The notes under the pieces are model-generated. The model was not told the origin of the DNA. It saw nothing but the letters and a program-made list of their open reading frames with translations, and made no database searches. A stretch of DNA of 64,000 nucleotides, from NCBI RefSeq assembly GCF_900446695.1, contig NZ_UAVP01000003.1, forward strand, positions 62,001-126,000, given 5' to 3'. A program made the position numbers and the translations under genes. Every line of letters starts with the position of its first letter. Positions within the stretch are counted from its first letter, which is position 1. The stretch comes from Capnocytophaga sputigena. Lineage in GTDB: Bacteria; Bacteroidota; Bacteroidia; Flavobacteriales; Flavobacteriaceae. Positions 24,596-62,757 of this stretch are shown in pieces.

Positions 24596-25447
24596 ATGAA
24601 ATATTTAGCAACCAAAAATCCGTTTTTTAATGTCTCTGGACTTACATCATCAGAGGCTAATTATGTATGTGAACGTATCAAAGAACGACTTAAACCTATT
24701 CAAGACCTTGTTAGTTCTATAGAAACTCATACTTCTAGCATCGATGGAGAACCTTTAGATACTTTCACAAAGGTAGATGATATAGGTGGCAAACTCAATG
24801 AAATCGGTTCATTATATGCCATTTCAGCTTATTTGCGTACGGCTATCAAAGAAAAAGAAAACCGTTTAGAAATAGTAAATAAAAAACTAAACGAAGTACT
24901 TGTTAAAGCTGAACAAGAAGTAAAACCTATTGATTATGAACCTCTAAACCAACTTAGAGATGTTACTATTGAGGATTATCTCAAAACTCTTTCATTAGAA
25001 GATATGGTTTGTTATAAAGAGGCAGAAGCTAAAGCTGCTCATATAGGAAAATACATTCATAATTTTGATGAAGTGCGCAACCAACTCAACAAAAAAGAAC
25101 TCATTACCTTTAAAGAAGTAGGAGAGCAGGTCTTCAAGATTAAAAACACTCCTTTATACGAACTCTCTGAACTACAACAGTTACAAGAACAGCTTCTGGC
25201 TGAACATCGTGAGTACGAAAGTGAAGTAAACTTCTATAAAGCACAATTCCGTACTTACCAAAACAATTGTAAATTGCAATATGAACAAGAGTTACAATGC
25301 TTGCTACAAGAACGTCAAGCAAAAGTAAATGCTTTGGTTGTAGAAAAAACAGCCGAACTTACTAAACTCAAAGAAACTATTGCTAATTACAGAATAGTAG
25401 TACCAAATGTTTATAAAGAAACTATTGGAACACTACTAAAAAAATGA
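24596..25447 (+). CDS. Coiled-coil protein of unknown function
   Basis: A 283-residue soluble protein, almost wholly helical. Strong heptad-type stretches lie at about 85-115 (KEKENRLEIVNKKLNEVL) and 185-265 (LSELQQLQEQLLAEHREYES onward). It has no signal peptide, membrane segment or catalytic motif. It begins four bases after galM but resembles in style the coiled-coil proteins encoded 3-6 kb downstream, from which it is separated by a 410-base intergenic region. It may be the first member of that cluster; this is an inference from composition and position. Confidence 0.65.
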   Translation: MKYLATKNPFFNVSGLTSSEANYVCERIKERLKPIQDLVSSIETHTSSIDGEPLDTFTKVDDIGGKLNEIGSLYAISAYLRTAIKEKENRLEIVNKKLNEVLVKAEQEVKPIDYEPLNQLRDVTIEDYLKTLSLEDMVCYKEAEAKAAHIGKYIHNFDEVRNQLNKKELITFKEVGEQVFKIKNTPLYELSELQQLQEQLLAEHREYESEVNFYKAQFRTYQNNCKLQYEQELQCLLQERQAKVNALVVEKTAELTKLKETIANYRIVVPNVYKETIGTLLKK

Positions 25448-25857
25448 GGTTAAGTACAAACAAAATAGTTAACTTATAACAGATTTGCTTTGTACTTATT
25501 TAGAAAACTACAAATCGGATTTCATTTGATAGCAAACACACCTCATAGGATATTCTCGCTCTATACCCAAAATAGTTTTAAAAGGGAATGGTGTTATCCC
25601 CAAAAAGAGAGTTTATCTCCCTTTCATCAAAAACTTCACTTTAGACTTTACCTTTGTGGGTATAGAGAACTTAAACTTTATTTTTGTCATCAGCTGCGTT
25701 CCGCTTTGTAGTTCTCACTTATATAATTCATCAATTCGTTAATGCAAAAAATAGACAATTATATTTTTTATTAAAGAAATATTAAATATTTGTATTTTTT
25801 ATTACCTTTGCAAAGTAATATAATGTAGTAGTGTATAACAAAAAAAGATAAAAGATT
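25448..25857. other. 410-base intergenic region with nested inverted repeats
   Basis: No convincing gene lies here. Two inverted repeats are nested: CTCTATACCCA (25559-25569) with TGGGTATAGAG (25657-25667), and inside them AAAGGGA (about 25580) with TCCCTTT (about 25620). The right part is very AT-rich and ends with a TACCTTTG element at 25803-25810. A 73-codon open frame starting with TTG crosses the repeats and looks like chance. It could be a structured leader, a decayed gene or a miniature element. Confidence 0.5.
25803..25810 (+). promoter_or_regulatory. Candidate -7 box before the SPFH-cluster genes
   Basis: TACCTTTG lies 48 bases before the SPFH protein start. No TTG is found 18-21 bp upstream, so only half of the promoter is supported. 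Confidence 0.4.
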
Positions 25858-27057
25858 ATGGCTATAATTGATGTCGTGAGTTGGTCTCCTCAAGGTAGTA
25901 GAGTAGTTTATGCTTGGAAATTCCCCGAAACTAATTTAGCTACTTATACCCAACTAATTGTACAAGAATCTCAAGAGGCTGTATTGTTTTCTAAAGGACA
26001 AATCATAGGAAAATTTGGACCAGGCAAGCATACTCTCAACACTGAAAATATACCTATTTTGCGTAATTTATTCGGAATTCCTTTCGGAGGAAAAAATCCC
26101 TTTACTGCAGAAGTATGGTTTGTAAACAAAGTACAATCGTTTAGTATTGATTGGAATGTGAGTGGAATGCCCATACACGACCCTGATTATAACACCCAAT
26201 TACCCCTTGTAGCCGTTGGTAGATATGGTTTGAAAGTAAATGACTCCGAAACATTCCTTATTAAAGCTGTAGGTACAAAATCTGAATTTACACAAGATGA
26301 TCTTACAAATCAATTTTTTGGAGAATTCTCTACTAAAACAAAATCACAAATAGCCCAATATGTTATCAAACATCGGGTAGGGTATAAATACATTTCAGCT
26401 TTTTTAGATGAATTATCAGGTTATCTCAAAAATGTACTCAATCCTTTTTGGACGAACTTAGGTTTAGAACTCCTTCAATTCAATATCACTAATATCGATA
26501 TTGATAAATCTACTGAAGAAGGTAGAAAGGTAGCTGAGGCAATTGCTACCCAAGCCTCAATGTCAATTACAGGACACACTTGGCAACAAGAACAAATGTT
26601 CAATACTGCTAACAATGCGATTGAAGGATTCGGAAATGGCAATGGAGGTTTATTAGGAGGATTAATGGCAATGAGTATGATGGGAGGTATGAATAATTCT
26701 GGAATGGCAGGAGGAATGATGCAACCTCAATATAACCAACCTACTTTTGGAGGTAATCAACAAGTAGGACAACAAGGAGAACAAGCTCCTATAAAAATGG
26801 TTTTCTGTTCTAATTGTGCTAAAAAATACCCAAGTAATAGTAGTTTTTGCCCTCACTGTGGCAATCCTTACAATCCTTGTCCCAATTGTGGTGCCGACAA
26901 TGATACCAATGCCAAACGTTGTGTGAGCTGTGGCACCCAATTACAACAAACAAACAATATTACTCCTGAGCAAACTATAGCCGATGTTTGTAATCGTTGT
27001 GGAACTGTATTCCCTCCTTCAGCAAAGTTTTGTCCAAAATGTGGGAATAAACGATAA
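25858..27057 (+). CDS. SPFH-domain protein with three C-terminal zinc ribbons (YdjI-like)
   Basis: A 399-residue protein. Residues 1-235 form an SPFH (stomatin/flotillin) domain of the 'virion core protein' type seen in Bacillus YdjI. A linker rich in Gly, Met, Asn and Gln (about 250-310) follows. The last 83 residues hold six CxxC pairs (CSNC from 317, CPHC, CPNC, CVSC, CNRC, CPKC from 392), enough for three zinc ribbons. There is no clear membrane anchor. SPFH proteins form large membrane-bound assemblies, and the YdjI relative works with membrane partners and PspA in envelope stress. It leads six co-directional genes with small gaps. Confidence 0.85.
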   Translation: MAIIDVVSWSPQGSRVVYAWKFPETNLATYTQLIVQESQEAVLFSKGQIIGKFGPGKHTLNTENIPILRNLFGIPFGGKNPFTAEVWFVNKVQSFSIDWNVSGMPIHDPDYNTQLPLVAVGRYGLKVNDSETFLIKAVGTKSEFTQDDLTNQFFGEFSTKTKSQIAQYVIKHRVGYKYISAFLDELSGYLKNVLNPFWTNLGLELLQFNITNIDIDKSTEEGRKVAEAIATQASMSITGHTWQQEQMFNTANNAIEGFGNGNGGLLGGLMAMSMMGGMNNSGMAGGMMQPQYNQPTFGGNQQVGQQGEQAPIKMVFCSNCAKKYPSNSSFCPHCGNPYNPCPNCGADNDTNAKRCVSCGTQLQQTNNITPEQTIADVCNRCGTVFPPSAKFCPKCGNKR

Positions 27058-27086
27058 TATTCAGCAAACAAATAATAGGTAACAAA

Positions 27087-27797
27087 ATGAATATACGTCG
27101 AAAATTATCATTAATAGCCTTAGTTTTAGGTGAAATATTATTGATAACAGCCTTTCTGTTATTGGGTACAAATTTAGCTACAAATATACTTATTCTAAAT
27201 ATTATAGTAGCCTCATTAGTCTATGCCTTGTTTTTTATTGATGTGCTCTTCCCTTGGATACATTTAGGGAAACAGCAACCTATTGAAGTAGGTTCATTGG
27301 GTGTAAGATGGTTTTTCACTTGGATTTATGCCTTTGCTGCTATAGGAGTGATGCTATGTGCTAATATATTCTTCAGTTGGTTCTTTGTCCTGCAATTTGT
27401 TATACAAACAACTCTTATTTTCTTATTAATTTTAGGTATGATTGCTGTATTATCAGCAGCCGATAGAGTAGGGGAGGTGCCTATCTTTGAAAACAGTATT
27501 GGGGCGGGTATTTCTGAAATGAAACAAGTGATGAACAATTTAAAAATACAAATCAGCACACTCCCCGATTTACCCGAAAACCTTGTACATCGAATTAACT
27601 CTTTAAATGAAAACTTGCGATACATTTCACCTGCAAATACAATAGAAGCTCGTGAAATAGAAAAACTTTTTTGCCAAGAAGCTAATGATATGTTAATCGT
27701 TATCAGTGATTATAAGTACAATACAACAACCATTGAAAATCATCTAAAAAAAATGGAATTATTGTATCAAAACAGAAAATCAGTCTATTCAATTTAA
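27087..27797 (+). CDS. Four-TM membrane protein of the SPFH cluster
   Basis: A 236-residue protein with four hydrophobic segments (about 8-28, 32-54, 72-92 and 97-122) and a cytoplasmic helical C-terminal half (about 130-236) that contains amphipathic, coiled-coil-prone sequence. I recognise no family. Its place 29 bases after the SPFH gene suggests it is a membrane partner or anchor for that protein, in the way YdjG and YdjH go with YdjI in Bacillus; this parallel is functional inference and not homology that I can show. Confidence 0.65.
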   Translation: MNIRRKLSLIALVLGEILLITAFLLLGTNLATNILILNIIVASLVYALFFIDVLFPWIHLGKQQPIEVGSLGVRWFFTWIYAFAAIGVMLCANIFFSWFFVLQFVIQTTLIFLLILGMIAVLSAADRVGEVPIFENSIGAGISEMKQVMNNLKIQISTLPDLPENLVHRINSLNENLRYISPANTIEAREIEKLFCQEANDMLIVISDYKYNTTTIENHLKKMELLYQNRKSVYSI

Positions 27798-27810
27798 AAA
27801 AAATAAAAAT

Positions 27811-29658
27811 ATGTTAGGAAAAATCTTTTCAGAATCCGATAGTATCTATCACGATCAAGCTAAAGTACTATTAGATTATTATAGCGCAGCAGCTGAAAAA
27901 ATAGTAGCCGAAGAGGAATGCATCGAAAAACAAATTGCAATTTTGGAAGAAGAAAAAGCAATGTTGCAAAAACAAATTGATGGACTTTGGGTGTGGTTTC
28001 TCACCTTAATATTTTTCTTTGTGTATTATATTAAAAAAAATACCCTTGAAAAAGAAATTGCTGACAAAGAAATACGTATTGCTGAGTTCAAGAAACAACA
28101 TAGCGAAATCTTTAGAGATTACAAAGTAACCAAACTTGGTTTAGCTTATGTACCTATTGCTGAACAAATAAAATATACTGATAAAAGTTTTATAGTAGAT
28201 TATACAGGACAAATAGACGAATCTGAAGTTGTACTTCAAATCCCTCGCCAAAACGATTTGCTGGTAGAAACCATTGAAAAACTTGAAAAACTATCAGAAC
28301 AAGCCCCTATAGTAGAAACTTCTTACAACACTGAAACTATCGAAACCGACCAATACTCTACTTCATTCCAAAAAATCAATCAACACGACTATTTTGGAAG
28401 TTTAGAACGTTCATTGCGTACCATTTCCTATTGTATGGATGATTTGAACACTACTTCAGTATCTTTGCCTTTAGTAGCCGATAAGAGCGAGTATTTAGCT
28501 TACCTGAATGAATATGCTACCGATAATGTTCCACAGGGTGCTGTTATAATTCCTGTTTTCAACAAAGAACGATATGCCGATAGTATCAACAAATTTCAGG
28601 AAATCAATCAACTAAGAGATTCTTTATCTAATAAAACTGAGCAATTCGAAAATGTATTAAAGAGTTTAATGCTCACTATGGCTACTTCTGTACAAGCTAT
28701 TTCAGCATTGAAGGTAGCTTCAGCTAATAAAATGATTACTGCTTCTAACAAAGTGTTATATCAACTCTTGAAATCTCCTTATAATCATTATTCACCTGTT
28801 TTAGAACACGAAGAAATAGAACGTATTCGCAATGAAAAGTTTGATTATAGCGAGTCTGTACAAGAGTACATTCCTTTCCATCTAAAACAGAGTTCTCGTG
28901 TGTATTACAACCTAACTTCAGGAATGTGGACTGCAGAAGATGGTAGCACTACCAATCTTCCTTTTGGAGTACATCAAATCTATGAAGAAATTGTAGCTCC
29001 TATGGTACAAAACTTAATGCAAGAAAACCGATTAGAACGCCTCAAAATCTACAATCATATTCACGATCAAAAAACACATTATCTAAATGAGTGGCATAAA
29101 GATACCGAAGCTTTCTATCGCTCAAACCGATTGGAAAGTGCCGATATCATCAACTTAATGCAAGAAAATTTGCGAAAATACGTAGCCGAATACAACACTT
29201 TGATTTCTTATCAACGCACTGAAGATAGTATGATACAAACAGAAGATAACTTAAACAGTGCTGTAGTGGATGTAGCCAACAATTCAGCTGAAACTCTCGC
29301 TGCTTTTGAGATGCAATCTCAAGAATTTAAAACAATACAAGATAATTTTGAGGAATATATGGAACGCCTAAAAGAGGATATAGAACTCAAAGCTATGAAG
29401 TTTGGACATATAGAGTATTATGATGCTAAATTGCGTGATGGACACTCAAATGAAATAGCTGTAGCCACTAATGAAGTGCATGACTTAGAAAATCGCCGAA
29501 AACCTCTTGCTCTTGTAAATCCACTTTTTGCTAAAACATCTGAATTGCCTCCTGTGCCTAATGTAGAAGAAGTTACTTTTGAACACATTTCATTGAACTT
29601 ACCTGTTATAGCCAAAAATGCACTCAACAATTTGAATAATTTCAGTAATAACAAATAA
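27811..29658 (+). CDS. Large coiled-coil protein with one hydrophobic segment, SPFH cluster
   Basis: A 615-residue protein. A coiled coil (about 25-55, with repeated Glu/Lys) runs into a hydrophobic stretch WVWFLTLIFFFVYYI (about 57-71) and on into a second coiled segment, an arrangement like a membrane-inserted helix or hairpin. The rest is largely helical with coiled-coil stretches near 265-300 and 490-545, and a central region (about 340-400) containing RVYYNLTSGMWTAEDGS. No catalytic motif is seen and the family is unknown. It follows the four-TM gene by 13 bases and probably belongs to the same complex. Confidence 0.65.
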   Translation: MLGKIFSESDSIYHDQAKVLLDYYSAAAEKIVAEEECIEKQIAILEEEKAMLQKQIDGLWVWFLTLIFFFVYYIKKNTLEKEIADKEIRIAEFKKQHSEIFRDYKVTKLGLAYVPIAEQIKYTDKSFIVDYTGQIDESEVVLQIPRQNDLLVETIEKLEKLSEQAPIVETSYNTETIETDQYSTSFQKINQHDYFGSLERSLRTISYCMDDLNTTSVSLPLVADKSEYLAYLNEYATDNVPQGAVIIPVFNKERYADSINKFQEINQLRDSLSNKTEQFENVLKSLMLTMATSVQAISALKVASANKMITASNKVLYQLLKSPYNHYSPVLEHEEIERIRNEKFDYSESVQEYIPFHLKQSSRVYYNLTSGMWTAEDGSTTNLPFGVHQIYEEIVAPMVQNLMQENRLERLKIYNHIHDQKTHYLNEWHKDTEAFYRSNRLESADIINLMQENLRKYVAEYNTLISYQRTEDSMIQTEDNLNSAVVDVANNSAETLAAFEMQSQEFKTIQDNFEEYMERLKEDIELKAMKFGHIEYYDAKLRDGHSNEIAVATNEVHDLENRRKPLALVNPLFAKTSELPPVPNVEEVTFEHISLNLPVIAKNALNNLNNFSNNK

Positions 29659-29670
29659 AACTATAGAATT

Positions 29671-30597
29671 ATGGCTCGAATTGATTGTGTAGTAGACACC
29701 CAACCAATGGCAGATGAAATACAATCTGTCTCCCATCAGATAAATGACACTACCACAGCCGTGGTAGCAATGAAAGCTGCTATAGTTTTAGCTGAACAAC
29801 AAGCAGCTGATATGGTCTGCAGAAATGTAAACAAAGGTTTTTACACCCTTATGCGTTCCCAAATATCTCAAAAAATAGCTAAACTACAAAGCGAAGTCGA
29901 TTCTCAACTGATGCAACTCAATGCGCAACGCAAACAACTTTTAGCAATTAAAAATCGTATGGAACGCGATTACAATATGCTTTCTGACAGATATTTGAAG
30001 CTCTTCAACGGAATAAACCAAAATCTTAAACAACGTATTTTAGAACTTGACCGTCCTGTATTTAATTTTGCAGTTCAGGAAGTAGGAAAAGTATCAAATA
30101 GAACTAAATACTTAGCTGCTACAGTACCTATTTCTCAGTTAGAATCGCTCATTACAAGCCAGCAGATTGTAATATCTAATATAAAATATCGTGCAGAAAA
30201 AGTGATTGAGTCAATGACTAACTTTTTAGCTAATACTTCTGAGCAAAAAAAATTATCAGAACGTGTATTACTAAAAAATGAAAAAGTTCAAAATACAACA
30301 TTACTCATACCTGCCTTAGTATGTGAGTCCAATTTCGACAGTTTCGATAATAAAAAACTCGAAGTAATTGTGAGCAAAGAACAACTCAATACCTCTGTAC
30401 AATCAGCAATGAAAAACACACTAAATCAACACTTAGAACAACTAGTATGGAATGATGCCTGCGAGCCTCACCAAGAAGTAAAAAGTGAATTTAGTAAGAT
30501 GCTTGCAACTAGCAATACCTCTCAAAGAGTGAAAGATATGGCTAACAAGCTTTTTATAGCGACTCATTTCCAAACCATTAAAAACGAACAGCTATGA
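29671..30597 (+). CDS. Coiled-coil protein, paralogue A of the SPFH cluster
   Basis: A 308-residue soluble helical protein. Residues 1-130 align with the neighbouring 340-residue protein: both have TAVVAxxAA / GAVVATEAA, then NKGFYTLMRSQISQKIAKLQ versus VKGFFSTIRSEITQQIAELK, then a shared MERDYN-x5-RYLK-x-F and L-[DN]-[RK]-P-x-F-x-F. This indicates gene duplication. No membrane segment or enzyme motif is present. The two genes overlap by four bases, so they are translated together and could form a heteromeric coiled coil. Function unknown. Confidence 0.65.
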   Translation: MARIDCVVDTQPMADEIQSVSHQINDTTTAVVAMKAAIVLAEQQAADMVCRNVNKGFYTLMRSQISQKIAKLQSEVDSQLMQLNAQRKQLLAIKNRMERDYNMLSDRYLKLFNGINQNLKQRILELDRPVFNFAVQEVGKVSNRTKYLAATVPISQLESLITSQQIVISNIKYRAEKVIESMTNFLANTSEQKKLSERVLLKNEKVQNTTLLIPALVCESNFDSFDNKKLEVIVSKEQLNTSVQSAMKNTLNQHLEQLVWNDACEPHQEVKSEFSKMLATSNTSQRVKDMANKLFIATHFQTIKNEQL

Positions 30598-31616
30598 GTT
30601 ATACTAAAACCATTAGAAAAACAGTTAGAATTCCCTATTCAGGAAGTGTATCGTATGGTCCTTCACAAAGTGGAGGTAGTGTGAGTTATAGTGGTACTGT
30701 AACTGAGGAAATAGAGGTAAATGTAGAAGTAGATACTGAACCTTTTGAAGAAAGTATCTATAATTGTAACCAATCAATAGGTGGACTTACAGGAGCTGTT
30801 GTAGCTACCGAAGCTGCTCAAATAGCTTCAATAAATGCTAATGCTAAAAAAGTAAGTGGCGCTATTGTTAAAGGTTTTTTCAGTACAATCCGTTCAGAAA
30901 TTACTCAGCAAATTGCAGAACTAAAATCACAAGTTGATGCAACTCTCATACATTTGCGCGGACTTGCTCAACGTTGTGTTGAAAAGCAAAAACAAATGGA
31001 ACGAGATTACAATAGCATTGCTAAACGCTATTTAAAAACTTTTGAAGACCTGAATAATGAACTTTCTAATCGCATATATGAACTGAATAAACCTGCCTTT
31101 GCCTTCAGTAAACAAAGTAATCAGCAGAACAATCGTGCTTATGAAAACGATTTGGTGAGTACTGTAGCTGTTTTTGGCAAAGAGGGAGCTGAATTAGAAG
31201 CAAAAATCAGTGCTTCAATAGTCAAAAAAAGAGCTCTTGATACTATTGAAAAAGCTAATACTTTTTTGTTAAAACAAAAACAATTAGAAGAACTTATCAA
31301 TCGAAATATGCTAAAAGAAAGTAAAAATGCTACAGCATACGCTCCTATTTGTTTTATAGAAATGGAAAATGAACAAAAACAGATAGATAAAAAGTTGTAT
31401 CAACAAGAGTTTATCTCTCAGATGCCAACAAATGAGCTTATGGATAACTTTTTGAAACAGAATTGGCATAAATTACCTGAAGAAAACATCGTGCAACTCA
31501 AAAGGTATTTTAATATTGAAATAGATAATCGTTATTCCAATAGTGATAACCATAACTCACGAGTGAAAGGTCATATCTTAAAAATGCTACAACTCAATGA
31601 AATAGAATGTATATAA
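30594..31616 (+). CDS. Coiled-coil protein, paralogue B of the SPFH cluster
   Basis: A 340-residue paralogue of the preceding protein with an added N-terminal region (1-55) that is rich in Ser, Gly, Tyr and Val and reads as short beta strands (VRIPYSGSVSYGPSQSGG, then EEIEVNVEVD). The shared core spans about 60-165 and carries the MERDYN...RYLKTFEDLN block. It contains no signal peptide, membrane segment or catalytic motif. It starts in an ATGA overlap with paralogue A and is followed 22 bases later by the beta-helix protein gene. Function unknown. Confidence 0.65.
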   Translation: MSYTKTIRKTVRIPYSGSVSYGPSQSGGSVSYSGTVTEEIEVNVEVDTEPFEESIYNCNQSIGGLTGAVVATEAAQIASINANAKKVSGAIVKGFFSTIRSEITQQIAELKSQVDATLIHLRGLAQRCVEKQKQMERDYNSIAKRYLKTFEDLNNELSNRIYELNKPAFAFSKQSNQQNNRAYENDLVSTVAVFGKEGAELEAKISASIVKKRALDTIEKANTFLLKQKQLEELINRNMLKESKNATAYAPICFIEMENEQKQIDKKLYQQEFISQMPTNELMDNFLKQNWHKLPEENIVQLKRYFNIEIDNRYSNSDNHNSRVKGHILKMLQLNEIECI

Positions 31617-31638
31617 CCCTAAAAATCAACTTATTACA

Positions 31639-32604
31639 ATGAAAGAATTAAAAGAAATTCGTTTTAACGAAAGCAATATACAACTAAAAGATAATTTAGT
31701 AAAAGGAAGTATATTACCTGAAAAAGTAGCCGAATTAACTCGTACCATTACAGTACAAGGAGATACCGTGATAGAAGGTCCTGTATACGCCCATAAACTC
31801 GAAATACAAAATGGAGACTTAGAAATCCAAGGTGCCGTCTTTACTCAATTGGAACTCTATGTAAATAGTGAAGCTCAAGGAAATGTAGCTTTCCAAAAAA
31901 GTGTAGGTTCTGCTAACTCTATCGTTTCAAGAGCTGATAAATTAAAACTTATATTTCATTCCGATATCAATGCTAAAAGTGTAACTCTCTATAATGCTTT
32001 TATAGCAGGTAGCATCTATGCCGATGAAATTGTATTAGATAATTGTGTCGTATGTGGAGGAGTATTTGCTACTCAACAAATAGACTTGAAAAACAGTGTG
32101 GTTGGCACATTCAACACTCCTTCTATACGTATAGAAGGCTCTGTGTATCTATTACTTCCAAGCGCTTTTTCTATAGAAAAAATGCTTGCTACTGCCAATG
32201 CGCAACTATACAACCTCAGTTTAGCTGATTTAGGAGCTCTCTACAAAGGATTACCTCAAACACCTAATTCAGGAAAAATAACAATGGATATTGAAACTGA
32301 TGAGGTAAAAAGCACTCTTGTAAATAACGAAATACAGAAAACTCTTCGCAGTTATACTGTTGTGGGCAAAGTATTAGCTGTAGATTTGATAGATACCGAT
32401 AAGTTTGAAAATCATTTCTTACTTACTGCAGCGAGTTTAGGAGCTCAGCTTCTCAAAACTTATGATTTAGGAGTAGATAAAAATGGTAATGCAGCAACTC
32501 TTACTCTTAATAAAATCCGCGACTTCTTTTTTGATATTCTCAATGGTAAAATAAGTGTTCAAGATATTGATGGCAAGTTTGATATTTCACAGTTAAATAA
32601 GTAG
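31639..32604 (+). CDS. Bactofilin-like / polymer-forming beta-helix protein, SPFH cluster
   Basis: A 321-residue protein. Residues about 35-175 show the short repeating hydrophobic-glycine pattern of bactofilins and polymer-forming cytoskeletal proteins (ITVQGDTVIEGPVYAHKLEI, then LEIQGAVFTQLELYV, SVTLYNAFIAGSIYADEIVL, IDLKNSVVGTF), consistent with a right-handed beta-helix able to polymerise. The C-terminal 140 residues form another, unrecognised domain. It is longer than typical bactofilins (100-200 residues). As the last gene of the cluster it could supply a cytoplasmic scaffold for the SPFH and coiled-coil proteins. The bactofilin link rests on pattern recognition. Confidence 0.65.
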   Translation: MKELKEIRFNESNIQLKDNLVKGSILPEKVAELTRTITVQGDTVIEGPVYAHKLEIQNGDLEIQGAVFTQLELYVNSEAQGNVAFQKSVGSANSIVSRADKLKLIFHSDINAKSVTLYNAFIAGSIYADEIVLDNCVVCGGVFATQQIDLKNSVVGTFNTPSIRIEGSVYLLLPSAFSIEKMLATANAQLYNLSLADLGALYKGLPQTPNSGKITMDIETDEVKSTLVNNEIQKTLRSYTVVGKVLAVDLIDTDKFENHFLLTAASLGAQLLKTYDLGVDKNGNAATLTLNKIRDFFFDILNGKISVQDIDGKFDISQLNK

Positions 32605-32619
32605 TCTTACTCTTTTTTG

Positions 32620-32649
32620 TTGTAGTGTTATTTTATTTTTGTATTTTTG
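32620..32649 (+). promoter_or_regulatory. gldF: Promoter of gldF-gldG
   Basis: TTG at 32620-32622, 19 bp, TATTTTTG at 32642-32649. Transcription should start near 32656, which excludes an in-frame ATG at 32647 and supports ATG 32731 for gldF, with a leader of about 75 bases. Confidence 0.7.
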
Positions 32650-33450: not shown

Positions 33451-35135
33451 AAAAACTCTTTCAAAACTCTATTAGCAAGGTAGTTATAGCCTTAGTATGC
33501 CTCCTTGCAGTCAATTATATCGCCAAACAATGGCACACGCGGATAGACCTCACCCAAGACAAACGTTATACGCTCTCTGAGGTGAGCAAGAAAATACTTG
33601 CTAAAATACAGAATCCTATCGTGATTGATGTATTGCTCAAAGGCAATATCCCTACCGAATTTAAGAAATTACAGACTGAAACAATTCAGTTATTAGACGA
33701 GTATGCAGCTGCCAATAACAACATTATCGTCAATTTTATAAACCCATTAGAAGGGGAGGAGCACCCCGAAAGTGTGATTCAAGAACTGATAAATAATGGC
33801 TATCAGCCCTTGCAAATCACCCAAAATGAAGCAGGAAAATCTTCTATTGAGTATATTTTCCCTTGGGCAGTCATTAGCGATGGCAAGAAGAGTGAGCGTG
33901 TGCGTCTCTTTGTAAACAAACTTGGCTCTACTGACCAAGAGCAGGTACAGAACTCTGTTCAGAAGTTAGAATACAATTTTACCGATGCGTTATATAAGTT
34001 TGCCTTAGATAAAAAGAAGAAAATCGCAATACTTAGAAGTAATGGTGCCCTAGAAGATATCTATATGGCCGACTTCCTCAAAACAGCGCGCGAATACTAC
34101 TTTATAGCACCTTTCACCCTCGATTCAGTGGCTACCAACCCCGAGAAGACTCTACACGACCTCGAAAAATTCGATTTACTACTCGTGCCTAAGCCTACTG
34201 AGCCTTTCACCGATGCCCAAAAGCAGGTCGTAGACCAATATATAATGAATGGCGGTCGTGCTCTATGGCTGATAGATAATGTGGCGGTTTCCTTGGAGGA
34301 TATGTACAAAACAGGCGGAATGACAATGGCAATGCCCATCAATCTAAATCTTACCGATATGTTTTTCCAATATGGTTTCCGTATCAATTACACCTTGGTA
34401 AACGATTTGTACTTTTCTGAAATCATAGTAGCCACAGGCGATGGCTCTCAAACCCGTTATATGCCTATTCCTTGGGTATATAATCCGTTGGTGATTTCAG
34501 GTAATAATCACCTTATCAACAATCATTTAGATGCAGTGAGGTTTCAGTTTGCCAATAGCATCGATACGCTGAAAAATGGAGTGAAGAAAACAGTGCTTCT
34601 CGCTAGTTCACCTTTTTCAAAAGCAGATGGCACCCCACGCGAAATCAACTTGCGCTTCGACCCCAATAACCAGAATAAAGAAGCCTATAAACACGGAAAT
34701 ATTCCCTTAGCAGTGCTTTTGGAAGGAGAGTTTAACTCAGTTTATAAAGATCGCATTCGCCCCATAAACCTCAAAGAAAAATCCGATAGAAGCAAGCCTA
34801 CCAAAATGTTGGTAGTCGCCGATGGCGATATTATCAAAAACGATATAGATAGCAAAAATAATATCCCCTTAGAACTCGGTTTTGATAAATGGACAAGCAA
34901 ATATTATGACAATAAATCCTTCTTGCAGAATGCTTTAAACTATCTTTTAGACGATACTGAGTTTTTGAGTTTACGCAATAAGAAAGTTCAATTAGCTTTC
35001 TTAGACAAACAAAAAGTAGCTGAAAGTATCAATAGTTGGCAAATAAAAGTATTTGTGTATCCATTATTGCTTTTGATATTGGTAATGCTATCAGTGTTAT
35101 ATTTTTATAGGAAGAAGAACATAAGAAAAGTATAA
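33447..35135 (+). CDS. gldG: Gliding motility-associated ABC transporter substrate-binding protein GldG
   Basis: A 562-residue protein with an N-terminal membrane anchor (about 9-26), a large periplasmic part with the GldG/IFT52-like region (LTQDKRYTLSEVSKKILAKI near 35, then NIIVNFINPLEGEEHPE), and a C-terminal membrane segment (about 535-553) before a basic tail. It is the partner of GldF in the gliding-linked ABC transporter. It overlaps gldF by four bases, and the following nuclease gene overlaps its stop by one base (TAATG). Confidence 0.92.
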   Translation: MKKLFQNSISKVVIALVCLLAVNYIAKQWHTRIDLTQDKRYTLSEVSKKILAKIQNPIVIDVLLKGNIPTEFKKLQTETIQLLDEYAAANNNIIVNFINPLEGEEHPESVIQELINNGYQPLQITQNEAGKSSIEYIFPWAVISDGKKSERVRLFVNKLGSTDQEQVQNSVQKLEYNFTDALYKFALDKKKKIAILRSNGALEDIYMADFLKTAREYYFIAPFTLDSVATNPEKTLHDLEKFDLLLVPKPTEPFTDAQKQVVDQYIMNGGRALWLIDNVAVSLEDMYKTGGMTMAMPINLNLTDMFFQYGFRINYTLVNDLYFSEIIVATGDGSQTRYMPIPWVYNPLVISGNNHLINNHLDAVRFQFANSIDTLKNGVKKTVLLASSPFSKADGTPREINLRFDPNNQNKEAYKHGNIPLAVLLEGEFNSVYKDRIRPINLKEKSDRSKPTKMLVVADGDIIKNDIDSKNNIPLELGFDKWTSKYYDNKSFLQNALNYLLDDTEFLSLRNKKVQLAFLDKQKVAESINSWQIKVFVYPLLLLILVMLSVLYFYRKKNIRKV

Positions 35136-35932
35136 TGCAAAACTACATTGATATTTTAGCACTAAATCAGGATTTTCAAGAATTTATTTTTGATAAGAAA
35201 CTGTCAAGAATAACAGAAAATTGTTCTTTACTGACTGATTTCTCAAAGATTTACAAAGAAGAGTTATCGAAAATACCTTTTAGAACTAATCTTTTGGATA
35301 GTTTTAATGTAAACGAAAATGCACACAGTCGTTTGCTGATTTCATTGTTAAAATATAAACCTGTATTGCATCACTTTTTGAATTTTCTTACAAAGAAAAA
35401 ATTAAATTTTGATATATCTTTAATTGATAAACCTATTCTTACAGTAGAAAAATGGCGTATTGATGGACTTGTCCAAGAAGAAGGAAAATATGCTTTCATC
35501 ATAGAAAACAAGATTCATAATGCTGTTGAACAGAAAGAGCAAATTGGTCGTTACATTGATATATGCAAACAATTAGGGTATAAATTAAACCAGATTTATA
35601 TTCTATACCTAACACGTTATGCTGGAAATGAACCTACAATACAAACGTGGGGAAATTATAAAGAAAGTGATTTTGCAGGACGTTATGTAAAAATAGCCTA
35701 TAAAGAAGATATTATTGTTTGGCTTGAAGAATATTTACAAGCAATATCTGAAAGAGAAACTATTGTAAAAAGTGCAGTAATACAATATATAGATTATTTG
35801 AAGCACGTTTTTAATAGCAGAGAAATATTTAAAGAGATGGACAACAAGTTACAAGATTTCTTAGTTAAAAAGTTACAACTAACTGATGACAATAATGTTA
35901 AAAATATAGAATATTATTACCACAAAAATTAG
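35135..35932 (+). pseudogene. PD-(D/E)XK nuclease family protein (PDDEXK_4 type), N-terminal part, frameshifted
   Basis: The 265 residues contain the PDDEXK_4 signature: ENAHSRLL (61-68), Asp110 in WRIDGLV, and Glu124-x-Lys126 in IIENKI, so the nuclease core looks intact. Full members run on to about 400 residues, but here TAG (35930-35932) cuts the frame inside ACAAAAATTAG. Removing one A from the five A at 35924-35928 joins it to the next entry and gives about 407 residues with a smooth junction (HKISEIDELQKH). It is AT-rich, overlaps gldG by one base, and looks like a transferred defence- or repair-type nuclease gene. A sequencing error is an alternative. Confidence 0.7.
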
Positions 35933-61806: not shown

Positions 61807-62757
61807 TTATTGTCTTGCTTTAAGTTTTTCAATGAGTTTAGGAACTACCTCAAAAGCATCACCTACAACACCATAATCGGCAGCTTTGAAAAAAGGTGCT
61901 TCAGGATCAGAATTGATAACTAATTTCACTTTAGAGGCATTTACGCCTGCCAAGTGCTGTATAGCTCCTGAAATACCTATAGCTATATAGAGATTAGGCG
62001 CTACAGGTTTACCCGTTTGTCCTACGTGTTCAGAATGAGGTCGCCATCCCATATCAGCAACAGGTTTAGAACAAGCGGTTGCTGCACCTAATACTTCAGC
62101 AAGTCCTTCCACTATCTGCCAATTCTCGGCAGCTTTCAACCCTCTTCCTCCTGAAACCACTATAGTAGCATCGTCTAACGACACTTTACCCGAGGTTTTC
62201 TCTGTAGTGATTACTTGTATCCCCCAATCACTATCAGGAAGTGTAGGAGCAAAAGGTTCTACTGTAAGTTCAACATTTTTTTCTTCTGTTTTAAAAGCAT
62301 TAGGAGCTAATCCTAATATTTTTATAGGGGTATTGATTTGACTAAGACTAATCGCTTTGTTTGAGAACACATTACTTTTTACAATAAAATCTTCAGTAGG
62401 TAAAGAAATGACATTAGATACATACCCCGCTTGCAAGCTATTAGCTAATAAAGGAGCTACTTCTTTGGCTTGTGAAGAAGTGCTAAATACCACTATCGTA
62501 CTACTTTCTTTTGCTACTGCTTGTTGCAATAGATGATTAAGTGTATTGGCAGAAATATGTTGTAGTTGGTCATTGGTAATGCTAAGCACTTTATTTACCC
62601 CATAAGCAGCTAATACTTCAGGTTGAGGTACATTTATAGTTACAGCTACTACTTTTGTTTGTTGTTTATCGGCAATTGCACGAGCATAAGTAGCTACTTC
62701 AAAAGCGCTTTTTTTCACTTTTCCATTTTCGGAATCTATATATATGAGTACTGACAT
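61807..62757 (-). CDS. etfA: Electron transfer flavoprotein, alpha subunit
   Basis: A 316-residue EtfA. The N-terminal domain (1-185) pairs with EtfB. The C-terminal FAD domain carries VVSGGRGLK, VADMGWRPHSEHVGQTGK and IGISGAIQHLAG. The heterodimer passes electrons from acyl-CoA dehydrogenases and others to the quinone pool via ETF dehydrogenase. etfB lies six bases upstream, so the two are co-transcribed. An acyl-CoA dehydrogenase gene is not visible in the window. Confidence 0.95.
   Translation of the reverse strand: MSVLIYIDSENGKVKKSAFEVATYARAIADKQQTKVVAVTINVPQPEVLAAYGVNKVLSITNDQLQHISANTLNHLLQQAVAKESSTIVVFSTSSQAKEVAPLLANSLQAGYVSNVISLPTEDFIVKSNVFSNKAISLSQINTPIKILGLAPNAFKTEEKNVELTVEPFAPTLPDSDWGIQVITTEKTSGKVSLDDATIVVSGGRGLKAAENWQIVEGLAEVLGAATACSKPVADMGWRPHSEHVGQTGKPVAPNLYIAIGISGAIQHLAGVNASKVKLVINSDPEAPFFKAADYGVVGDAFEVVPKLIEKLKARQ

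Follow-up and report, generated by a model that had tools for sequence, protein, structure and literature searches.

SPFH proteins are widespread in life, and what their bacterial assemblies build is largely open. The Bacillus protein YdjI combines an SPFH domain and a zinc-finger motif, is soluble and has no anchor of its own; it depends on two membrane proteins, YdjG and YdjH, and connects PspA to the membrane, and deletion of ydjG or ydjH causes cell-shape defects under stress (PMC8581546). Another, distant SPFH protein of bacteria is stated to assemble into an enclosed 24-mer (PMC10936438). Here we describe a six-gene cassette in a 64,000-nucleotide stretch of the Capnocytophaga sputigena genome (RefSeq assembly GCF_900446695.1, contig NZ_UAVP01000003.1, forward-strand positions 62,001 to 126,000; hereafter the window, in whose coordinates positions are given). 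The products of the cassette (25858-32604) are an SPFH protein that carries three zinc ribbons, P2 with four transmembrane (TM) segments, the 615-residue P4 with a membrane anchor, the coiled-coil paralogues P5 and P6, and the bactofilin-like P7; the six genes are one co-inherited unit.

Relation to YdjGHI-PspA and other SPFH loci

An initial annotation, made from the DNA letters, had pointed to a resemblance to YdjI, and this resemblance is real at the level of an SPFH domain plus zinc ribbon: the pspA-ydjGHI locus of B. subtilis likewise combines a soluble, TM-less SPFH protein bearing a C-terminal zinc motif with membrane-protein genes alongside (PMC8581546). The Bacillus locus includes PspA/IM30, whereas none of the six cassette proteins matches PspA_IM30 in Pfam, and this family is not among the 25 commonest of the 187 families in 133 flanking proteins. 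YdjG is a TF-zinc-ribbon membrane protein, whereas zinc ribbons are absent from the window's P2 and P4 and present in one of 38 P4 members. Counterparts of P4 to P7 are not named in the available description of pspA-ydjGHI, and our comparison with YdjG, YdjH and YdjI is one of description, not of sequence. We infer that the cassette works, in a broad sense, like the YdjI kind, but it falls outside the YdjGHI-PspA system proper. In agreement with the initial annotation, no described system with this six-gene set emerged from our text searches of the literature.

Pairs of an SPFH gene and a P2-like gene also exist outside the cassette. On the Butyrivibrio plasmid pNP21 (L046:6700-10053), an SPFH gene is accompanied by a short P2-like gene (profile E=8.4e-9) and by a gene whose product starts with a zinc-ribbon-like CxxC, and in Bacteroides finegoldii (L045; NZ_OY725907.1) by a weakly P2-like gene (E=3.2e-5) and a zinc-ribbon gene. 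P4 to P7 are absent from both, and other zinc-ribbon proteins come next, unlike in the cassette. Such pairs suggest that the SPFH protein and its membrane partner form a core that combines with different modules. The B. finegoldii record, labeled a plasmid, holds rny, obgE and hpt and may be a misassigned piece of chromosome. The SPFH-SHOCT proteins of other Capnocytophaga have Band_7_1 in common with the cassette protein, but at locus L036 SHOCT takes the place of the zinc ribbons. SPFH matches from elsewhere in the genus, outside the cassette, show 22-29% identity in their aligned part, and P2 and P4 to P7 are absent near six Capnocytophaga SPFH loci of this sort. At L036:9225-12380, the SPFH-SHOCT gene adjoins a gene for a SUFU/SUKH (SMI1_KNR4) protein, as seen with Pfam on L036, and L037 and L038 have the same layout; SUFU/SUKH-type domains frequently occur in toxin-immunity loci.

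Six genes inherited as one unit

A scan with an SPFH profile and two SPFH peptide patterns, covering one genome per species in 84,980 species, turned up 222 relatives, and the loci of the 80 best were fetched. The complete set, in one order and on one strand, is present in 59 of the 60 loci with room for it: 56 of the 80 have a single main open reading frame (ORF) for each of the six families, and L071, L077 and L119 have all six in order with one gene split into two counted ORFs. The remaining 20 loci end too early to judge, and the genes present in them fit the same order. In six loci (L060, L076, L079, L084, L086 and L128) an extra piece of P4, P5 or P2 sits in the gap before the main ORF. 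Median intergenic gaps across loci are 2 to 19.5 bases; those of the window are, in order, 29, 13, 12, -4 and 22 bases, which bears out the six co-directional neighbors from 25858 that the initial annotation had described. Adjacency in other genomes, on which that annotation had staked its reading, is thus found in the SPFH-seeded loci and recurs when P4 is the seed. The P4-seeded check covered 16 regions, 12 from the 23 matching spirochaete genomes and four from the six of the Barnesiella order; the latter four repeat known loci, and 11 of the 12 new spirochaete loci carry all six genes in order, one of them (L136) with P4 in two ORFs.

As a negative control, we inspected ten loci around non-cassette SPFH genes, in none of which P4, P5, P6 or P7 was found, while two contain a P2-like gene. 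Pairwise distances among the six families correlate (r=0.86-0.96). In the Treponema zioleckii order (291 genomes), P4 occurs in 23 genomes and P7 in 26, with 22 in common; the one genome with P4 alone (G953) coincides in its coordinates with L116, a P7-less locus discussed below, and the four P7-only genomes hold fragments at a contig start (G885 and G957), a partial gene (G1027) or two short pieces (G1038). The largest family among true flanking genes occurs in 4 of the 80 loci, all Alistipes-type relatives, and the commonest Pfam family in 4 of the 133 flanking proteins scanned. The first upstream neighbor lies on the same strand in 33 cases and on the opposite strand in 21, the first downstream neighbor in 27 and 20, respectively.

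A patchy distribution across phyla

The 56 loci are labeled Bacteroidota (45), Spirochaetota (5), Bacillota (3), Actinomycetota, Fibrobacterota and Ignavibacteriota (one each), although many are metagenome bins whose host labels may be wrong; L084, for example, is labeled Clostridiales but nests with Muribaculaceae in our tree. With complete sets in loci labeled as six phyla, we rejected the restriction to Bacteroidetes that had been proposed at the outset. Within these lineages the presence of the cassette is patchy. Of 20 genomes sampled from the genus, three have strong matches to P4 (G000, G206 and G208), and two of three weak matches there (G197 and G210) were inspected and rejected. A single-sequence query detected P4 once among 196 genomes from the window's order, and a three-row profile once among 296 from its phylum, both times in the window's own genome. 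P4 further occurs in 6 of 344 genomes of the Barnesiella order (two already in the set); in 23 of 291 of the Treponema zioleckii order (three already in the set); and in 1 of 348 genomes of the phylum of a Butyrivibrio bin, already in the set. The closest named relative of the window locus is in Capnocytophaga periodontitidis, whose SPFH protein is 98% identical.

Patchy presence, the occurrence of the block at unrelated sites within the genus and its nesting in the Bacteroidales together point to horizontal exchange of the six-gene cassette. The nesting comes from a quick tree of the six proteins jointly (57 rows, 2217 columns, LG+G4), in which the Capnocytophaga cassettes lie inside a Bacteroidales group; monophyly of the other 36 rows of this group without Capnocytophaga was rejected (approximately unbiased test, p=0.004), for a group named after the tree had been seen. 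The base composition of the cassette does not stand out (34.0%, with 34.2 and 35.2% on its two sides). Viral contigs, searched with two peptide patterns for P4 and two for P7, yielded no confirmed relative of either protein, and tblastn returned no relative of P4, P6 or P7 from plasmids and none of P4 from phages. Together with flanks that have little in common between loci, these results give the cassette the appearance of a self-contained unit of the chromosome that spreads horizontally.

Features of the encoded proteins

The features of the cassette are collected in Table 1. The SPFH protein belongs to Band_7_1 (PF13421; E=3.1e-34, 118.9 bits, cut-off 24), and Zn_Ribbon_1 (PF13240) matches it in three stretches, in agreement with the three zinc ribbons read initially. 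Among 38 aligned SPFH members, 12 have six CxxC motifs and 26 have eight, and 37 have no hydrophobic segment. None of the other five window proteins scores above a Pfam cut-off. For P2, which does have the four segments first ascribed to it, relatives give weak Pfam matches in single members only, and the number of segments in 33 aligned members is four in 24, three in 5 and five in 4.

Table 1. Features of the six-gene cassette and its borders (window coordinates)
Feature	Position	Strand	Basis
Candidate promoter element TACCTTTGC of the cassette	25803..25811	+	pattern match, 46 bases before SPFH start
SPFH protein, 399 residues, no TM segment, Gly/Met-rich linker, three C-terminal zinc ribbons	25858..27057	+	Pfam PF13421, PF13240
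Zinc-ribbon array of SPFH protein, residues 313-399	26794..27054	+	CxxC at residues 317, 331, 341, 355, 378, 392
P2, four hydrophobic segments, ~110-residue C-terminal soluble tail	27087..27797	+	hydrophobicity
P4, 615 residues, long predicted helices, no known family	27811..29658	+	no family match
P4 membrane anchor, ~residues 58-75	27982..28035	+	single short hydrophobic segment
P5, 308 residues, coiled-coil, P6 paralogue without N-terminal beta hairpin	29671..30597	+	hhalign with P6
P6, 340 residues, N-terminal beta hairpin, 131-residue helix, 51-residue helix, C-terminal mixed domain	30594..31616	+	AlphaFold
P6 amphipathic beta hairpin, residues 3-46	30600..30731	+	strands 3-20, 29-46 (model)
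P7, bactofilin-like, equally conserved C-terminal half (residues 176-321)	31639..32604	+	sub-threshold Pfam match
Promoter-like TTTG-N22-TANNTTTG, right boundary, between P7 and gldF	32616..32649	+	pattern match

P4 of the window has no Pfam match at E<=0.05, no NCBIfam match and no relative in the PDB, where the single match had E=0.067. Its low-confidence AlphaFold model shows an N-terminal helix, the anchor, a small beta region and two long helical stretches. One hydrophobic segment is indeed present in this protein, as first noted, and the window P4 itself may be single-pass. Most Bacteroidetes members have a short hydrophobic stretch as their anchor, and relatives from Treponema, Clostridia, Ignavibacteria and Fibrobacterota a long one made of two segments; we therefore rejected a single-pass topology as a general rule. 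The two-segment anchor of these distant relatives suggests that both P4 ends lie on one side of the membrane, and both flanks of the anchor would be cytoplasmic, since the regions on its two sides are conserved. Past the position of window residue 600, 28 of 38 P4 members have a tail of at least 50 residues with a median of 41% acidic residues, while the Capnocytophaga tails measure 15-19 residues (15 in the window); Pfam matches among the 38 are to L7/L12-C in two members, a zinc ribbon in one and LEM in one.

P5 and P6, whose genes overlap by four bases, are full-length paralogues (hhalign profile-profile probability 100, E=1.5e-55), which upholds their initial description as two overlapping coiled-coil paralogues. 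The AlphaFold model of P6 has a mean predicted local distance difference test (pLDDT) score of 80.3 and a predicted template modeling (pTM) score of 0.26, and in its second hairpin strand polar and non-polar residues alternate beyond shuffled sequences (p<=0.05) in all 38 members. The weak profile similarity of P7 to bactofilins spans residues 20-87, and P7 differs from them in a long C-terminal half that is equally conserved (conservation 0.71 and 0.70 in the two parts of P7); its sequence is weakly periodic.

Models for the assembly

The anatomy fits a membrane-associated scaffold, as the initial annotation had proposed. The reading we tentatively prefer, at what we judge to be somewhat under an even chance, is that the cassette makes an SPFH/coiled-coil/beta-helix scaffold attached to the inner membrane on its cytoplasmic side, which it would organize or shield under envelope stress. 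Membrane siting is supported by the P2 segments and the P4 anchor, and rods by the 131-residue helix of the P6 model; the SPFH/P2-like pairs that lack the other four genes also count in its favor, given that YdjI needs YdjG and YdjH (PMC8581546). P2 and P4, the latter through a short hydrophobic anchor or hairpin that would leave its bulk cytoplasmic, would tether the scaffold; the soluble SPFH protein would oligomerize on these anchors and recruit partners via its zinc ribbons; the P5/P6 pair would build long coiled-coil rods and P7 would form or cap a beta-helix polymer, while the long acidic P4 tail of many relatives, sometimes with a small C-terminal domain, may hold a client. The assembly would then organize or shield membrane patches under envelope stress in the manner of YdjI-YdjG/H-PspA, with different partners.

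Several observations weigh against this scaffold. The cassette has no PspA-like gene, its patchy presence indicates that its role is not housekeeping and, since no flanking family occurs in more than 4 of the 133 proteins, the flanks offer no regulator as a hint to that role. The P4 anchor is not universal: the segment is not hydrophobic in L073 and L074, and 8 of 38 members have no hydrophobic segment at the threshold used. The P4 model has a mean pLDDT of 68, and Foldseek searches gave no match at E<=0.001. The label bactofilin-like holds as a weak profile similarity, but P7 of the window stays below the cut-off of Pfam Bactofilin (PF04519), with 21.8 versus 27.9 bits, and the matches at E<=0.01 in 22 of 38 P7 members are also weak (best E=8e-5). 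Finally, two loci break the set. L116 (Treponema) has the SPFH gene to P6 in order but no P7, despite 1,525 bases beyond P6, where the ORFs (L116:11097-12621) are, as we take them by eye, Cas4- and Cas1-like. L149, from a spirochaete, has P4 to P7 with unrelated sequence in place of the SPFH gene and P2 (L149:1-1730), by loss, rearrangement or misassembly.

These two loci and the lack of a shared annotation are what could be said for unrelated genes that neighbor each other by chance, a notion refuted by the conserved gene order and orientation of 59 of the 60 loci with room, labeled as six phyla, and to which we give practically no weight. The strongest rival, though still an unlikely one, is an anti-phage or anti-toxin defense cassette, whose products would form an assembly bound to the membrane and detect or block attacks on it. 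It owes this rank to the patchy distribution together with single flanking genes that match defense models: the cassette is accessory, apparently horizontally acquired and, at the frequencies given above for the genus and for the Barnesiella and Treponema zioleckii orders, sparse; it sits at different sites in one genus; the Cas-like ORFs of L116 and a PD-(D/E)XK candidate defense gene at 35135 of the window are in keeping with it; and strong PADLOC matches in the flanks include GajB, DRT helicase, Csx1, DpdF, PDC-S01 and PDC-S05, although each is found in 1 of 133 proteins, these counts have no control set and helicase models also match ordinary helicases. The six proteins themselves have no convincing match in PADLOC-DB 2.0.0 (best E=0.0014 for P6 with ZorA3 and 0.0027 for P5 with ZorG3, none for the other four) and, consistent with the absence of enzyme motifs noted initially, no enzyme or effector domain above cut-off in Pfam or NCBIfam, and the searches of viral contigs (P4, P7), plasmids (P4, P6, P7) and phages (P4) speak against defense as well.

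That the six proteins form a cytoskeletal device, with P7 as its bactofilin, which governs shape or polarity of the cell or the placement of its wall, strikes us as rather improbable. The bactofilin-like P7, two coiled-coil proteins and the membrane anchors would suit it, as would the stress-dependent shape defects of the Bacillus ydjG or ydjH deletions (PMC8581546), but P7 falls below the family cut-off, no wall or division family is named among the 25 commonest of the 187 flanking families, and a device that shapes the cell ought to be present in most relatives rather than in 3 of 20. Distinctly improbable, in our view, is a compartment or client-sequestering body in which an SPFH cage and rods enclose a client picked by the variable P4 tail. 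The long acidic tails with their occasional C-terminal domains and the enclosed 24-mer of a distant SPFH protein (PMC10936438) lend it some color; against it, the Capnocytophaga tails are merely 15-19 residues, and no shell-protein family and no evident cargo appear among the six in Pfam.

Beyond the stress-related scaffold preferred here, the cassette could possibly, though we would sooner doubt than assert it, encode a categorically new membrane apparatus, mobile and widely scattered, with no known counterpart, organelle-like or protective in role, in which an SPFH/zinc-ribbon platform would join two dedicated membrane proteins, P5/P6 rods of ~20 nm and a P7 beta-helix polymer, and swappable domains on the acidic P4 tails would set the clients. 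P2, P4, P5/P6 and P7 are families without established function, and since fixed partners are kept with one SPFH protein across phyla, evolution gives the parts list of one assembly, a six-gene set that lends itself to expression and imaging in its entirety. Because isolates are among the carriers (Capnocytophaga periodontitidis, Barnesiella sp. An55 and Treponema zioleckii), deletion should be feasible.

Boundaries of the cassette

The initial annotation had counted seven genes, and all seven ORFs lie on the forward strand where it had placed them, but only six belong together. The coiled-coil gene at 24596-25447, 5' of the SPFH gene, was rejected as a member: it is matched in 11 of 20 genus genomes versus 3 of 20 for P4, it is absent from G208, where the six genes form one block with quite different neighbors, and in G209 it adjoins an epimerase gene with the cassette absent. 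It represents a family without known function that is variable within the genus, and its match in G200 holds several stops. Upstream of the seven ORFs lies an aldose 1-epimerase gene (Pfam), and the 3' neighbors of P7 are gldF (TIGR03518) and then gldG, both assigned with NCBIfam.

The -7 promoter consensus of Bacteroidetes is TANNTTTG. The single TACCTTTGC match before the SPFH gene is a weak pointer, because the window holds 40 such 9-mers versus 20.1 expected. The longer pattern TTTG-N(15-22)-TANNTTTG, its consensus taken from general knowledge, occurs 20 times in the whole window versus 6.1 expected, an excess in line with a Bacteroidetes-type promoter. The pattern matches at the two borders fit an operon that ends at P7, with gldF possibly under its own promoter, although such patterns do not by themselves show transcription. 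The six genes are probably transcribed together. Directly after gldG, a gene of the PD-(D/E)XK nuclease superfamily (35135-35932) matches PF14281 (E=1.1e-15) and the PADLOC candidate PDC-S26 (E=1.1e-27).

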